A DNA stretch of 64,000 nucleotides, from assembly GCF_900108365.1 (NCBI RefSeq), contig NZ_FNWQ01000003.1, positions 186,001 through 250,000 of the forward strand. The letters run 5' to 3'. Source of the stretch: Chryseobacterium culicis. Lineage in GTDB: Bacteria > Bacteroidota > Bacteroidia > Flavobacteriales > Weeksellaceae. Both the position numbers and the translations under genes were made by a program. Numbering within the stretch: position 1 is the first letter of the stretch; each line of letters begins with the position of its first letter. Below, in pieces: positions 7,900 to 14,204 of this stretch. Below the pieces are notes generated by a model. That model was not told the DNA's origin, made no database searches, and saw only the letters and a list, made by a program, of their open reading frames with translations.

Positions 7900-10881
7900 C
7901 TATTTCAGTTTTTTCTTAACAGCTACTTCTTCGTAAACTTCAAGAATATCTCCGGTTTCGATATCGTTGTAACCTTTTAGATTCAGACCACATTCGTAAC
8001 CTTTTGTAACTTCTTTAACATCGTCTTTGAAACGCTTCAAGCTTTCAAGCTCTCCGTCGAATTTCACAATACCGTCTCTTAGCAAACGTACTTTGGACTG
8101 TCTTGTTACTTTTCCGGTAAGAACCATACAACCTGCAATTGTTCCAACTTTAGAAATCTTGAATACTTCACGAATCTCAACATTACCGATTACCTGCTCC
8201 TGAATTTCCGGAGAAAGCATTCCCTCCATCGCTTCTTTCACTTCATCAATTGCTTTATAGATTACGGAATATGTTCTGATTTCAATTTCTTCACGATCCG
8301 CAAGTTCTTTTGCATTAGCACCAGCCCTAACATTGAATCCGATGATAATTGCATCTGATGCAGCCGCTAAATTAATATCAGACTCTGTGATCTGCCCAAC
8401 ACCTGAGTGAAGAATCTTCACACTGATCTCTTCTGTTGACAATCTCTGTAACTGATCAGAAAGCGCTTCTACAGAACCATCCACGTCACCTTTAAGGATA
8501 ATATTCAATTCTTTGAACTCTCCTAAGGCAATACGTCTGCCTAATTCTTCAAGCGTTGTATGTTTTTTCGTTCTGATTGATAGCTCTCTCTGTAACTGCT
8601 CTCTCTTATTGGCAATAGCTTTACCTTCACTTTCATCAGCATATACTCGGAATTTATCACCAGCAGTAGGCGCTCCGTCCAACCCTAAGATGGTTGCAGG
8701 GATTGATGGACCTGCTTCTTTAAGGTTTTTACCTCTTTCATCAAGCAGCGCTTTTATTTTACCGTGGTTTTTACCTGCTACTACATAGTCTCCAACTCTT
8801 AAAGTTCCGGTTTGCACCAACATGGTTGCTACATAACCTCTACCTTTATCTAAAGATGCTTCAATAACAACCCCGTTTGCTGAACGCTCAGGATTTGCTT
8901 TTAACTCAAGCATTTCAGCCTGTAATAGAACTTTCTCCAGCAATACATCTACATTATTACCAAATTTAGCTGAAATCTCCTGCGCCTGAACATTTCCACC
9001 CCACTCTTCTACTAAAACCGGAGGGTTCAAGCCAGAAAGCTGCTGACGGATGTTATCAGGGTTCGCATTCGGCTTATCAACTTTATTGATAGCAATAATC
9101 ATTGGTACCTGTGCAGCCTGAGCATGGGCAATAGCTTCTTTGGTCTGTGGCATTACATCATCATCGGCAGCAATTACAATAATGGCAATATCTGTGATCT
9201 GAGCACCTCTGGCTCTCATCGCTGTAAAGGCCTCGTGACCTGGCGTATCTAAGAATGTAATTCTTTGTCCGTTTTCAAGCTTTACATTATAAGCACCAAT
9301 GTGCTGAGTAATTCCTCCGGATTCACCAGCAATTACGTTTGTTTTTCTGATGTAATCCAATAATGAAGTTTTACCATGGTCTACGTGTCCCATTACAGTA
9401 ACTACAGGAGCTCTTTGCAATAAGCTGTCTTCTGTATCAACTTCTTCTTCGGAATCTGTATCTTCAAGATCTGCATCTGAGAATTCGATTTTATAACCAA
9501 ATTCGTCTGCTACTAATAATAAGGTATCCGCTTCGAGTCTTTGGTTCATGGTAACCATTACACCTAGCGAGAAACAGGCAGAGATTACTTCAGTTGGAGA
9601 AACATTCATCAAGCTTGCCAATTCACCTACAGTGATGAATTCTGTTACCTTAAGAGTTCTGTCTTGTGCCTCAAGCTCCTGCTGACGCTCATCCTGTTCT
9701 CTACGGAAAGTTCTTTTGTCTTTTCTGTGTTTAGCAGATTTAGATTTCCCTCCTTTATTGGTAAGTTTTTCAAGGGTTTCCTTGATCTGGTTTTTAACCT
9801 GCTCGTCAGTTAATTCAACCGGCATCACTCTTTGTCCAGGTCTGTTGTTCTGGCCTCCTTTCTTGAAGCCGCCACCACCTTGACCTTGCGGACGGTTTCC
9901 ACCACCCTGGTTATTTCCAAATCGGTTTCCGCCCTGGCCACCCTGACCTTGCGGACGGTTTCCCTGACCACCTTGACCTTGACGGTTTCCTCCTTGTCCT
10001 CCATTGTTATTATGCGGACGGTTTCCTCCTTGGCCTTGACCACCTTGGTTATTGTTATTATTTCCTGAGTTTTGATTATTTCCCTGACCTTGCTGGTTAT
10101 TCTGGCCGCCAGGTTTTTCAATTCTCTTTCTTTTCTTTTTTGCACCAGCACCTGGTTTTGGAGCAAACTGAGTAAGGTCTATCTTTTCACCAACGATTTT
10201 AGGACCGTCTAATTTCTGATATACCGTCTCAATCTTCTGAGGTTCCTGAGATTCAGGTTCAGCTTCAACTTTTGGAGTTTCTACTTTTTTCTCCTCAACA
10301 ACAGCTGGTTTCGGAGTTTCTTTTACTGTTTCCACAGGCTTCACTTCTTCTTTTTTCTCCTCCATTTTTGGTTTGTCTTTTTTCACAGGTCTGTTTCTAG
10401 ATTCTATTTGAGACAAATCAATTTTATCCAAAACTTTGAATTCCTGCTTTTCAGGAGCTGCTTTTACTTCCGGCTGTTCTTCTTTCACGATTTCTTCTTT
10501 CTTTTCTTCAACCGGTGTTGCAACAGGAGCTGAAGGAGCTGCAGGAGCCTCCTCCACTTCAGGCGTCTTAGGTTCTAGATCAATTTTACCTAAAATTCTA
10601 GTTTCTGGTTTATTTGCTTTAGCTCTTATCACTTCAGGGGTTTTCTTTTCTTCAATTTCCAGCTTTTCTTCCGGAACTTTAGTGATCACCACCTCATGGG
10701 AAGCTTTTCTTTGTTCGCCGTCTTTAGCAAACTCAGCCTCCAATGCAGAATATGCCGATTCTTCCAATTGAGCGTTAGGATTGCCTTCAACCTCGAAACC
10801 CTTTGATTGTAAAAACTCTACTAATCTGGACATCGAAATATTGAATTCCTTAACCGCTTTATTTAATCTAATTTTTGGCAT
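7900..10881 (-). CDS. infB: Translation initiation factor IF-2
   Basis: 993 residues. IF-2 is a GTPase that brings initiator tRNA to the 30S subunit and promotes 50S joining. The G-domain motifs are intact: GHVDHGKTS (about residues 495-503), DTPGHEAF (about 550) and NKVD (about 600), followed by the IF-2 beta-barrel and C-terminal domains. The N-terminus starts with the helix-forming IF2_N-like segment ([21 protein letters not shown]), then a long Lys/Glu/Pro/Val-rich stretch (about 70-235) and a basic patch ([12 protein letters not shown]). A Gly/Gln/Asn/Arg-rich low-complexity tract (about 254-350) precedes the conserved core. It is the last gene of the rimP-nusA-infB operon, 76 bases after nusA, and is followed by a terminator-like hairpin. 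Confidence 0.98.
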
Positions 10882-10957: not shown

Positions 10958-12193
10958 TTAATCTTCAAATTCTTCTCTTAGAATACGTTTAACCTCCTCG
11001 ATTGTTTCTTCTTCAAGGTCTACCATATTTAAAAGACTTTCAGTTTCTTTATCTAATACTGATTTTGCAGTTGTAAGTCCTACTTTCTTAAACTCATCCA
11101 AAATCCACTGCTCGATATCATCGTTAAATTCTCTTAATTCAACATCGTCATCCTCGCTGGACTCTCTGTATACATCAATTTCATATCCTGACAACCAAGA
11201 AGCCAGTCTGATATTCTGTCCTTGTTTTCCAATCACTTTAGAAATCTCTTCAACAGGAGTATATACTAATGCATAGTTTTGATCCTCATTGATGTCAATT
11301 TTATTGACCGTCACATTTCCTAATGCTCTTTTCACCAAAATCTCAGGGTTTTTAGACCACTGAATAACATCGATGTTTTCATTTCTCAACTCTCTTACAA
11401 CGCCATGAATTCTGGATCCTTTCACTCCAACACATGCTCCTACCGGATCAATTCTGTCATCATAAGCATCAACTGCAATCTTCGCCTTCTCACCAGGAAT
11501 TCTCACTACTTTTTTCAGCATAATTGTTCCGTCCTGGATCTCAGGAATTTCCAGCTCTAATAACTTCTCTAGGAATTTAGGTGCAGTTCTGGAAATAATA
11601 ATCTGTGGTTTAGAACCTTTGAAATCTACTGTCTCAACAATAGCTCTGATATTCTCACCCTTTTTAAAGAAATCGGATGGGATCTGGTTTTCTTTTGGTA
11701 AAATAAATTCATTTCCTTCATCATCCAGCAAAATCACATGTTTGTGACGGATATGGTGGATTTCACCAACAACTATTTCTCCAATTTTATCTCTAAACTG
11801 CTCGTACAGCATTGCATTATTGTGCTCCTGAAGCTTTGTAGCCAGGATTTGCTTAAGGGTAAGAATATTTCTTCTTCCCAATTGTGCAACAGGAATTTCC
11901 ATTGTAAAGTCCTCACCTACTTCGAAGGTAGGGTCAATCTTTTTTGCTTCAGAAATTTCAATTTCCAAATCATCATCTTCAGACATTTCGTCCTCTACAA
12001 TTGTTTTATTTAAAAATATCTGAAAATCTCCTTTATCCGGGTTTACAATCACATCAAAATGATCATCTGAATCAAATCTTTTTCTTAAAAGAGTCTTCAG
12101 TGAATCTTCAATAATTGCCATAAGATCAATTTTACTGATCCCCTTTTCGTCTTTAAAATCACCAAAGGATTCAATCAACGCTATATTATCCAT
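10958..12193 (-). CDS. nusA: Transcription termination/antitermination factor NusA
   Basis: 411 residues, the shorter form common in Bacteroidota that lacks the C-terminal acidic repeats of the Escherichia coli protein. The order is an N-terminal RNA-polymerase-binding domain (about 1-125, with SLKTLLRKRFD), an S1 domain (about 130-200, GEIVVGEIHHI), then KH domains (GACVGVKGSRIHGVVREL near 250-270 and VIGKQGQNIRLASWL near 320). NusA binds elongating RNA polymerase and modulates pausing and hairpin-dependent termination. The gene starts 16 bases after the rimP stop and belongs to the same operon. A terminator-like hairpin in that operon's leader could be a NusA target. Confidence 0.97.
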   Translation of the reverse strand: MDNIALIESFGDFKDEKGISKIDLMAIIEDSLKTLLRKRFDSDDHFDVIVNPDKGDFQIFLNKTIVEDEMSEDDDLEIEISEAKKIDPTFEVGEDFTMEIPVAQLGRRNILTLKQILATKLQEHNNAMLYEQFRDKIGEIVVGEIHHIRHKHVILLDDEGNEFILPKENQIPSDFFKKGENIRAIVETVDFKGSKPQIIISRTAPKFLEKLLELEIPEIQDGTIMLKKVVRIPGEKAKIAVDAYDDRIDPVGACVGVKGSRIHGVVRELRNENIDVIQWSKNPEILVKRALGNVTVNKIDINEDQNYALVYTPVEEISKVIGKQGQNIRLASWLSGYEIDVYRESSEDDDVELREFNDDIEQWILDEFKKVGLTTAKSVLDKETESLLNMVDLEEETIEEVKRILREEFED

Positions 12194-12209
12194 CTATTTT
12201 TTTTTCTTT

Positions 12210-12677
12210 TTAAAATTTAATTACTACTAATGCTTTTTTGATCTCGGAGTAAGCAATCTCTTTCTCCTCTTCTACATCTACTTTTCCTTTTCCGATATCT
12301 TTCGGTTTGCGGTAACGTAAAGTAAGTGTGATCTTCTCTTCATCTACTTTTGACAGTTCTCCTTCAATTTTGGAAGAATCCTCCAGCATCACCTCAATTT
12401 CTCTCCCAATATTTTTTCCGAACTGTCTTGGTGTGGATAATGGTTCGCTTAATCCGGCAGACATCACCTGCAGGCTGAAGTCGTGCTCTTCACGATCCAT
12501 ATTGAATTCTATTGCACGGCTTGCATCCAGGCAGTCTTGCAGAGAAACTCCGTTATCACCATCTAAAATCACTGTAATATCATCCCCTGCAGAAATTTTA
12601 AGATCAATAAGAAACAGATCTTTTCTGGTCTCAAGGAATTCATTTAATAATTCTTCAATTCTTTTTCTAAACTCCAT
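12210..12677 (-). CDS. rimP: Ribosome maturation factor RimP
   Basis: 155 residues, typical length. RimP helps assemble the 30S subunit. The family hallmarks are an N-terminal alpha/beta domain (ETRKDLFLIDLKIS, then ITVILDGDNGVSLQDC with the conserved D-G-D and S-L-x-D-C pattern, then REEHDFSLQVMSAGLSEPL) and a C-terminal small barrel (ALVVIKF at the end). It is the first gene of the rimP-nusA-infB operon, an order conserved widely in bacteria. A strong promoter lies about 75-105 bases upstream, and a terminator-like hairpin sits between the promoter and the start codon. Confidence 0.95.
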   Translation of the reverse strand: MEFRKRIEELLNEFLETRKDLFLIDLKISAGDDITVILDGDNGVSLQDCLDASRAIEFNMDREEHDFSLQVMSAGLSEPLSTPRQFGKNIGREIEVMLEDSSKIEGELSKVDEEKITLTLRYRKPKDIGKGKVDVEEEKEIAYSEIKKALVVIKF

Positions 12678-12703
12678 ATATATTTATCTTGATTTACAGT
12701 ACG

Positions 12704-12728
12704 AAAAAAGGCTTTCTTCCGAAGCCTT
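12704..12728 (-). terminator. Terminator-like hairpin in the rimP operon leader (attenuator candidate)
   Basis: Read on the minus strand, AAGGCTT (12728-12722), a 7-base loop and AAGCCTT (12714-12708) form a stem that runs into a tract of six T (12709-12704), two of them in the stem. It lies inside the leader, about 27 bases before the rimP ATG and downstream of the promoter, so it can only affect this operon when read on this strand. Confidence 0.65.
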
Positions 12729-12752
12729 CCCATTTTTTCCGTAAATCCAATG

Positions 12753-12783
12753 CAAATATACGATATTTTTCTAAAAATGCAAA
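12753..12783 (-). promoter_or_regulatory. Promoter of rimP-nusA-infB
   Basis: On the minus strand TTTG (12783-12780), 19 bases, then TATATTTG (12760-12753): an exact match to the Bacteroidota TTTG-N19-TAnnTTTG layout. The predicted transcript starts near 12747, giving a leader of about 70 bases. Confidence 0.75.
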
Positions 12784-12857
12784 ATTATCTTAAGTATCAG
12801 GTAAATAGCGCCCCACTCATTTACAACAAATTAAAAGAATATGTCACAGTATTTTTA

Positions 12858-12865
12858 TATTTTTG
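12858..12865 (+). promoter_or_regulatory. -7 promoter element (TATTTTTG) of ugd
   Basis: TATTTTTG matches TAnnTTTG and lies 25 bases before the ugd start. It probably starts the ugd-rfbB-rfbA transcript; no clear -33 element is present. Confidence 0.45.
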
Positions 12866-12890
12866 CCATTAGAATTTAAAAACAGACATT

Positions 12891-14204
12891 TTGAATATAA
12901 CGATTGTAGGAACAGGTTATGTAGGGCTGGTTACAGGAACCACCCTTGCAGAACTTGGCAATTCAGTATACTGTGTTGATATTGATGAAAAAAAAGTAGA
13001 AGGTATGAAAAACGGCGTAGTTCCCATCTATGAGCCGAACCTTGAAGAAATGTTTTTAAGAAACATTCAGTCTGAGAGATTATTTTTCACTACCAACCTT
13101 AAAGAAGCTCTGGACAAGAGCGAAGTAATTTATCTGGCACTGCCTACCCCTCCCGGTGAAGACGGCTCTGCAGATTTGTCTTATGTACTTCATGTAGCCA
13201 ATAATATAGGCGAGCTGATGACAGAATATAAAGTGATTGTTAATAAGAGCACCGTTCCTGTAGGAACGGCAGACAGGGTAAGAGAAACAATCTCTGCCAA
13301 AACACAGATCCCTTTTGATGTCGTTTCAAATCCTGAATTTTTAAGGGAAGGCTTTGCCGTTGAAGACTCTATGAATCCCTCAAGAGTAGTTGTAGGCGCC
13401 AGCTCAGAAAAGGCTAAAGACATCATGTCTAAAATTTACCAGCCTTTTACCAATACAGGAATTCCCATTATATTTATGGATGAGAAATCATCTGAACTTA
13501 CAAAATATGCCGCGAACTCATTTTTAGCCGTAAAAATTACGTTTATGAATGAGATTGCCAACTATTGTGAAAAAGTAGGTGCGGATGTAGATAAAGTGAG
13601 GCTTGGAATGGGCAGTGATGACAGAATAGGCCACAGATTCTTATTCCCGGGAATCGGATATGGAGGGAGCTGTTTTCCGAAAGATGTAAAAGCCCTTATA
13701 AAATCCGGAAAACAGGAAGATTTTAACTTCCAGATTCTTGAAGCTACTGAAAATGTAAATACCTCCCAGAAAGTTATTTTGGTATCTGAAATTGAAAAAT
13801 ATTTCGGTGGAAATATCCAAGGAAAAAAAATTGCCATGTGGGGACTTGCCTTCAAAGCCAATACCGATGACATCAGAGAAGCTTCATCTTTAGACAATAT
13901 AGCCCTTTTACTGGAAAAGGGTGCCGAAATTGTAGCATATGATGCCGTTGCAGAAAGCAATGTTCAGAAACTTCTTGGTAACAAAATACAGTACGCCAAA
14001 GGAATGTATGACGCGCTGGAGGAAGTGGATGCATTATTTATTGCTACAGAATGGCCTGAATTTAAAAACCCTAATTTCGAACTGATGGCCAGAAAAATGA
14101 AAAATAAGGTTATTTTTGACGGGAGAAATATGTACCCACTGGAAATCCCCGAGCAAAACGGGTTTTATTATAAAAGTATAGGAAGAAAAACCATTTCAAA
14201 ATAA
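12891..14204 (+). CDS. ugd: UDP-glucose 6-dehydrogenase
   Basis: 437 residues, usual length. The enzyme oxidises UDP-glucose to UDP-glucuronate with two NAD+. The Rossmann motif GTGYVGL (residues 7-13) begins the protein; the catalytic cysteine is in GGSCFPKDV (Cys261), with the conserved NPEFLREG and AFKANTDDIREA segments. No ATG is available: the best start is TTG 12891, with ATT just before it as an alternative, and both give the same Rossmann start. It is the first gene of the polysaccharide locus, four bases before rfbB. Other members of the family act on UDP-ManNAc or GDP-mannose; the sequence pattern favours UDP-glucose but does not exclude a related substrate. Confidence 0.92.
   Translation: MNITIVGTGYVGLVTGTTLAELGNSVYCVDIDEKKVEGMKNGVVPIYEPNLEEMFLRNIQSERLFFTTNLKEALDKSEVIYLALPTPPGEDGSADLSYVLHVANNIGELMTEYKVIVNKSTVPVGTADRVRETISAKTQIPFDVVSNPEFLREGFAVEDSMNPSRVVVGASSEKAKDIMSKIYQPFTNTGIPIIFMDEKSSELTKYAANSFLAVKITFMNEIANYCEKVGADVDKVRLGMGSDDRIGHRFLFPGIGYGGSCFPKDVKALIKSGKQEDFNFQILEATENVNTSQKVILVSEIEKYFGGNIQGKKIAMWGLAFKANTDDIREASSLDNIALLLEKGAEIVAYDAVAESNVQKLLGNKIQYAKGMYDALEEVDALFIATEWPEFKNPNFELMARKMKNKVIFDGRNMYPLEIPEQNGFYYKSIGRKTISK

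Follow-up and report, generated by a model that had tools for sequence, protein, structure and literature searches.

What function could a short hairpin running into a T tract serve between the promoter and the first gene of the rimP-nusA-infB operon in Chryseobacterium culicis? The window, i.e. the whole stretch of 64,000 nucleotides analysed here, carries the three genes, an essential set serving the ribosome and RNA polymerase, in this order on the minus strand (Table 1), the third being the one we take, from its translated sequence, to be infB. The upstream neighbour of rimP (12891-14204) lies on the plus strand, so that no gene of the same strand ends at the hairpin, as had been argued in a preliminary description of this DNA. 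The same description had also claimed a full TTTG-N19-TATATTTG promoter ahead of rimP and an operon suited to feedback by NusA, and both claims hold: the promoter pattern is matched exactly at 12753-12783 on the minus strand (G000:C9:198753-198783), with 75 nt between the -7 box and the rimP ATG, and nusA is the second gene of the operon, with a match to PF08529. Transcription would be expected to start a few bases past the -7 box. Based on the comparison of leaders given below, we consider it probable, at roughly two chances in three (0.68), that the element is a premature intrinsic terminator attenuating the rimP-nusA-infB operon.

Table 1 Features of the rimP-nusA-infB locus and its leader (positions in the window)
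Feature	Position	Strand	Basis or remark
-33 element TTTG of the rimP promoter	12780..12783	-	exact promoter pattern match
-7 box TATATTTG	12753..12760	-	exact promoter pattern match
Outer stem, 5' arm GATTTAC	12741..12747	-	leader fold
ATG at the hairpin foot, behind the A tract	12731..12733	-	might start a leader reading frame or belong to a binding motif
Terminator-like hairpin, 5' arm AAGGCTT	12722..12728	-	fold; invariant in 39 distinct genus sequences
Terminator-like hairpin, 3' arm AAGCCTT	12708..12714	-	fold and genus alignment
T6 tract	12704..12709	-	its first two bases are also the end of the 3' arm; no variation in the 39 distinct genus sequences
CGTAC directly 3' of the T tract	12699..12703	-	invariant in the genus
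Outer stem, 3' arm GTAAATC	12691..12697	-	leader fold
rimP	12210..12677	-	open frame; first gene of the operon
nusA	10958..12193	-	Pfam PF08529 match; gene of the proposed effector
infB (IF2)	7900..10881	-	open frame

Behind the promoter the leader consists, in this order, of GATTTAC, GG, A6, TGGG, AAGGCTT, CGGAAGA, AAGCCTT, TTTT, CGTAC, T and GTAAATC, followed by 13 nt and the rimP ATG. The hairpin with six T claimed to lie shortly before rimP is thus present, the distance from the T run to the ATG being 26 nt. The hairpin itself is weak (-8.8 kcal/mol by the energy rule defined below), and the energy of the segment from the outer arm through the T run is ordinary (z -1.4; 19 of 200 shuffles fold equally well); hairpin fold energy, being unremarkable against shuffles, was dropped as evidence, and the element is rated above chance because it is conserved. 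The whole leader, at -20 kcal/mol, is more stable than all 200 shuffles (z -4.4), this unusual energy being due to an outer stem, GAUUUAC/GUAAAUC, which is absent from the preliminary description and encloses both the hairpin and the T run. All predicted structures of the leader contain or enclose the hairpin, and no conserved antiterminator is seen in the predicted leader folds.

Concerning the genus, 118 genomes were drawn, the same RimP protein being found in 117 of them, and 70 leaders were read, including that of the window; 47 of the 117 genomes with rimP, as well as 20 loci of the genus (L072-L091), stand outside this comparison. In two of the 117 genomes (G063:C1:1980318-1980776 and G038:C1:4468025-4468490) stops break the rimP frame, possibly by sequencing error. 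The rimP-leader element is present in all 70 leaders, and over their 39 distinct sequences 41 of the 63 positions of the window row are invariant—including T6, CGTAC and the ATG upstream of the hairpin—some sequences having one extra C inserted in the 5' arm. The element has a mean pairwise identity of 93.8% (600 random pairs of the 70 leaders), compared with 90.4% in the initial 60 bases of rimP, 74.1% in the promoter spacer and 74.0% in the stretch leading to the ATG. Nine of the 11 inner-stem pairs never vary in the 39 distinct sequences, and the RNAalifold consensus of the genus retains the inner stem only, without any compensatory pair; with so little change, covariation is uninformative at this level. 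The outer stem has 95.6% of its cells paired over the same 39 sequences and a single pair with a two-sided change; since there is just that one change, and since the family does not, by eye, retain the stem, we regard it as a feature of the genus. It should be noted that in the family the TACG upstream and the CGTA downstream of the hairpin could, as judged by eye, pair in place of the outer stem.

A covariance model built for the genus finds its best match at the rimP leader in 24 of 24 genomes of the genus (73-92 bits); places other than rimP score at most 37.3 bits, the best being G017:C7:213932-213997. No match was obtained at E 0.1 in any of 15 genomes from other families of the order, the genomes searched including no other genus of the Weeksellaceae.

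Beyond the genus, the comparison covered 27 further leaders from Weeksellaceae, 20 from more divergent genera of that family, 33 from other families of Flavobacteriales, 19 from other orders of the class Bacteroidia and 21 from the rest of the phylum, the class and phylum samples being drawn as one genome per genus (40 genera). All leaders read from the genus (70/70), the family (27/27), the order (33/33) and the class (19/19) have a -7 box of the form TAnnTTTG, as do 6/21 phylum leaders. Under the energy rule, i.e. a closed hairpin of -6 kcal/mol or below adjoining at least five T in eight, a hairpin with a T tract is found in all 70 genus leaders, in all 47 other Weeksellaceae (27/27 and 20/20), in 33/33 order and 18/19 class leaders and in 20/21 leaders from the rest of the phylum. 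The miss in the class (L275) results from the choice of the box, its hairpin being visible otherwise, and that in the phylum is L302; in one divergent leader (L388) the structure given by the rule differs from the hairpin seen by eye. As controls, promoter-like places of the own genome satisfied the rule in 6 cases of 32 (three at -8 or below), the places being derived from the first 30 of 209 listed, and dinucleotide shuffles did so in 77 cases of 357 (34 at -8). Since 15 of the 21 outermost phylum leaders lack a match to the -7 box, the hairpins in these leaders might end an upstream gene.

The energy rule demands a T tract, and therefore the best hairpin was also chosen regardless of its tail. 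It is then followed by at least five T in eight in all 70 genus leaders, in 23 of 27 from the family and in every order (33/33) and class (18/18) leader, as opposed to 10 of 27 promoter-like places of the own genome; this tail-blind count replaces an earlier T-tract count on the order and class stems, which was circular as its rule demanded T. A strict stem rule, used before the energy rule and replaced by it because it misses bulged stems, gave a hairpin in 54 of 79 rimP-type leaders of the named loci, in 55 of the 60 loci from the order, class and phylum, and in 65 of 85 leaders with a box versus 2.9% of shuffles. Among the 11 places of the window with a promoter plus an open reading frame, the one at rimP is the only one with a terminator-like hairpin by that rule, and the named loci have such a hairpin at one of 26 other places.

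The sequence of the stem changes from clade to clade. The near relatives share the form AAGGC(C)TTC...GAA.GCC-T6-CGTA, most of the 27 family leaders having CGTA after the T tract and some TGTA, and the stem of the Weeksellaceae differs from that of the other Flavobacteriales. In the order and class, GAGGGGAC...GTCCCCTC-TTTT occurs in 23 of 51 leaders, variant stems being GAGGCACGC/GCGTGCCTC, GAGGGGGC/GCCCCCTC and AGAAGGGAACG/CGTTCCCTTCT, and the divergent Weeksellaceae have stems such as GAGGAGGGCT/AGCTCTCTTT and AAAGAGAGC/GCTCTCTTT. With the arms compared from the loop outward, the 51 order and class leaders present 23 distinct 8-bp stems (the eight pairs next to the loop), and of their 408 pairs 397 are Watson-Crick, five G-U and six mismatched. 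The differences between clades look like compensatory changes, with the caveat that pairing is favoured by the rule used to pick the stems. A MAFFT alignment of the order and class hairpins left the loops out of register and was not used for counting pairs. The alignment of related leaders proposed in the preliminary description has borne out the conservation of the stem and the T run, with compensation between clades, but not a covariation inside the genus.

The T tract being kept, an event on the RNA polymerase is favoured, either premature termination or pausing. In the mechanism proposed, the polymerase would start at the TTTG/TATATTTG promoter and make a leader of roughly 40-50 nt before reaching the hairpin and the U tract, where a share of the polymerases would stop while the rest would read on into rimP; NusA, the likeliest controller, would when abundant stimulate termination at this hairpin and so limit its own operon. 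The individual steps do not carry the same weight. Termination is likely to happen at the T tract, and the conservation of the element makes it likely that termination is regulated; as for NusA being the effector, we would give about even odds, drawing on the content of the operon and on the precedent of Bacillus subtilis. Counting against the terminator reading, CGTAC, the outer stem downstream and the ATG upstream are superfluous for plain termination.

The ATG at the hairpin foot is present in 96 of 97 Weeksellaceae leaders, in 94 of these 96 starting 6 nt before the AGGC core, and has an A at -3 in 85/96 and at -6 in 31/96. It could, although this is unlikely, belong to an attenuator sensitive to the ribosome: the foot AUG would open a short leader reading frame extending through the hairpin, and a ribosome initiating there would keep the hairpin from forming, so that the polymerase could pass and the operon would read translation initiation directly. 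The near-constant presence, the fixed spacing and the A at -3 speak for such a device, an A at -3 and -6 favouring initiation in Flavobacterium johnsoniae according to the accessible text of PMC6847099, as does an ATG near the stem foot in 14 of 33 leaders of other Flavobacteriales. The low share of A at -6 speaks against it, as do the facts that the ATG stands in all three frames relative to rimP, that one leader has ATG-stop, and that the peptides are of several types with stops before or after the rimP start; a conserved leader peptide, as in a leader-peptide attenuator, was accordingly rejected, with no conserved frame, peptide or stop in the 97 Weeksellaceae leaders. Moreover, as seen by eye, the ATG stands next to the stem in roughly half of the 20 divergent Weeksellaceae leaders and is missing there from the other half, and only 2 of 18 class leaders have it near the stem foot. 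It may be a start codon needing initiation only, or part of a protein-binding motif. We regard it as unlikely that in the Chryseobacterium-like Weeksellaceae the foot AUG and the conserved flanks make termination depend on translation initiation, together with or instead of NusA; if true, a single leader would tie together RNA polymerase (NusA), ribosome assembly (RimP) and initiation (IF2).

The position of the element bears on a second explanation, namely that RimP or a ribosomal protein binds the element as a translational operator at the rimP start. In 78 leaders with estimated start codons, the loop centre lies 33-38 nt from the -7 box in the family, 21-40.5 nt in the order and 25.5-39.5 nt in the class, never beyond 40.5 nt, and the rimP start follows the loop at 34-120, 18.5-119.5 and 16-55.5 nt, respectively. 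An operator at the start would fit the short and rather constant distance to the estimated start in most order leaders, the interquartile range of which (21.5-25 nt) is narrower than that of the box-to-loop distance (30.5-37.5 nt), and the element is for this reason not claimed to be locked to the promoter alone. Against an operator stand the far outliers, which occur on the start side only (119.5-120 nt in the order and family), and the group medians for family, order and class, which drift more on the start side (41, 23.5 and 31.5 nt) than on the promoter side (36, 35.5 and 31 nt); the pooled standard deviations are 4.9 nt from box to loop and 19.7 nt from loop to start. An earlier comparison (standard deviations of 5.4 nt from box to loop and 26.6 nt from loop to rimP) was set aside, its marks not being start codons and differing between groups. 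All in all, the position leans towards a role at transcription start, a role at translation being compatible as well, and the operator, which does not need the kept T tract, appears improbable.

Returning to the proposed regulated terminator, its motif proves to be specific to a single site in Flavobacteriales. In 34 of 119 Flavobacteriales genomes GAGGGGAC-N3-6-GTCCCCTCTTTT occurs at one place each, all 34 places lying upstream of rimP, on its strand and within about 120 nt (coordinates compared by eye); in one of the 34 genomes this place is matched on either strand. With the pattern reversed as a control, none of the 119 genomes gave a match. Among the 85 genomes lacking the motif are Weeksellaceae, genomes in which rimP was not matched and those with variant stems. 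The Weeksellaceae pattern is found in the named genomes in at least 119 stretches, 115 of the 119 being situated 14-96 nt upstream of rimP on its strand; among the matches listed, 78 of 80 are upstream of rimP, with hosts including Chryseobacterium, Kaistella, Elizabethkingia, Epilithonimonas, Cloacibacterium, Soonwooa and Halpernia. The single-site motif, together with the conservation beyond pairing, suggests a specific recognising factor.

The remaining four of the 119 stretches lie in loci without a rimP match (L195, L211, L230 and L234). The first (L195, 2739-2770) is a terminator-like site after a tRNA-Ser gene, and the others (L211, 1629-1659, and one site each in L230 and L234) resemble, by eye, terminators after gene ends; the GCCTTTTTTCGTA tail of the Weeksellaceae rimP leader is found in all four.

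The specificity weighs against the hairpin being a weak terminator that acts constitutively and without regulation, or an insulator that shields from antisense transcription, as it suggests, with the conservation beyond pairing, recognition by a factor. It is true that an inverted repeat with a T run is present on the plus strand, too—a simple scan lists the inverted repeat on that strand only, not on the minus strand—but the A run before the stem is by eye not constant outside the Weeksellaceae, and we hold both variants to be improbable. A 5'-end structure protecting the mRNA, or a processing site, with the T run incidental, would agree with the closeness of the hairpin to the RNA 5' end (in the family, order and class the -7 box precedes the loop by 21-40.5 nt), but protection does not need the T tract that is kept, which makes this explanation very unlikely.

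The putative premature terminator is of a kind already known, an early terminator ahead of rimP-nusA-infB having been described in other bacteria. According to the accessible text of Naville and Gautheret 2010 (PMC2965389), no attenuator in their survey is more widespread than the rimP-leader; its terminator carries the conserved motif GGGc(...)gCCC, and NusA is the best effector candidate, Firmicutes and Gammaproteobacteria being named among 'the majority of species'; the main text, as far as accessible, mentions neither Bacteroidetes nor Flavobacteri. The window leader resembles that attenuator, as described there, in the operon, the hairpin ahead of rimP, the T stretch directly after it, the G-rich 5' and C-rich 3' arms, and in that the predicted folds show no antiterminator. 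It differs in its stem, AAGGC/GCCTT, where the motif test found GGC/GCC only and not GGGc/gCCC, and in the extra conserved flanks, including the outer stem in the genus, whereas most of the order and class leaders compared have GGGGAC/GTCCCC or a near form. The window stem being without the rimP-leader motif, we class the element as a variant of the Weeksellaceae, not as a member, that would work like the rimP-leader attenuator.

In B. subtilis, NusA controls its own synthesis by stimulating termination within the 5' leader (Mondal et al. 2016, cited in the accessible part of PMC12288461). The operon is the same and the logic proposed here, NusA-stimulated intrinsic termination, would be the same as well; that result is experimental, the Chryseobacterium element being predicted from sequence, and its 75 nt from the -7 box to the ATG contrast with the 180 nt given for the B. 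subtilis nusA leader in the available text of PMC2965389. Closer in taxonomy, a structured 5' element at rimP of Flavobacterium psychrophilum, found in other Flavobacteriaceae and without an Rfam hit, was listed in 2021 (PMC9723704); it is likewise a structured 5' transcribed region at rimP, for which the accessible text gives no structure, mechanism or link to the rimP-leader. The literature search found no experiment on the rimP-leader element in Bacteroidota. The statement in the preliminary description that no case of this form was described in Bacteroidota must therefore be narrowed: the kind is described (PMC2965389, PMC12288461, in the parts available) and a rimP element of Flavobacteriaceae is listed, whereas the extent in Bacteroidota is new as far as the literature found shows, and so are the single-site specificity and the divergent Weeksellaceae form with its near-invariant foot AUG.

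An early terminator before rimP-nusA-infB is indicated as widely kept in Bacteroidota, as in the phyla of its description, and autoregulation by NusA becomes testable in a phylum with a promoter code of its own and without Shine-Dalgarno use. The Weeksellaceae form offers a natural comparison, the stem sequence having changed while the device stayed.

As to Rfam, the family RF01770 (rimP) shares its name and operon with the window leader. It gave no match in positions 12100-13200 of the window up to E 10, and none at the rimP leader of the window genome among the matches listed; above its gathering cut-off of 47 bits stood none of nine Bacteroidota genomes versus one of 14 control genomes. A match to RF04319 (FopS) stayed below the cut-off of 56 bits with a score of 21.4 (E 1.4) and was taken as chance. 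In Escherichia coli K-12, the region between metY and rimP contains terminator-like hairpins, one being GGGCTTTAGGCCC followed by seven T and another likewise having a T run.
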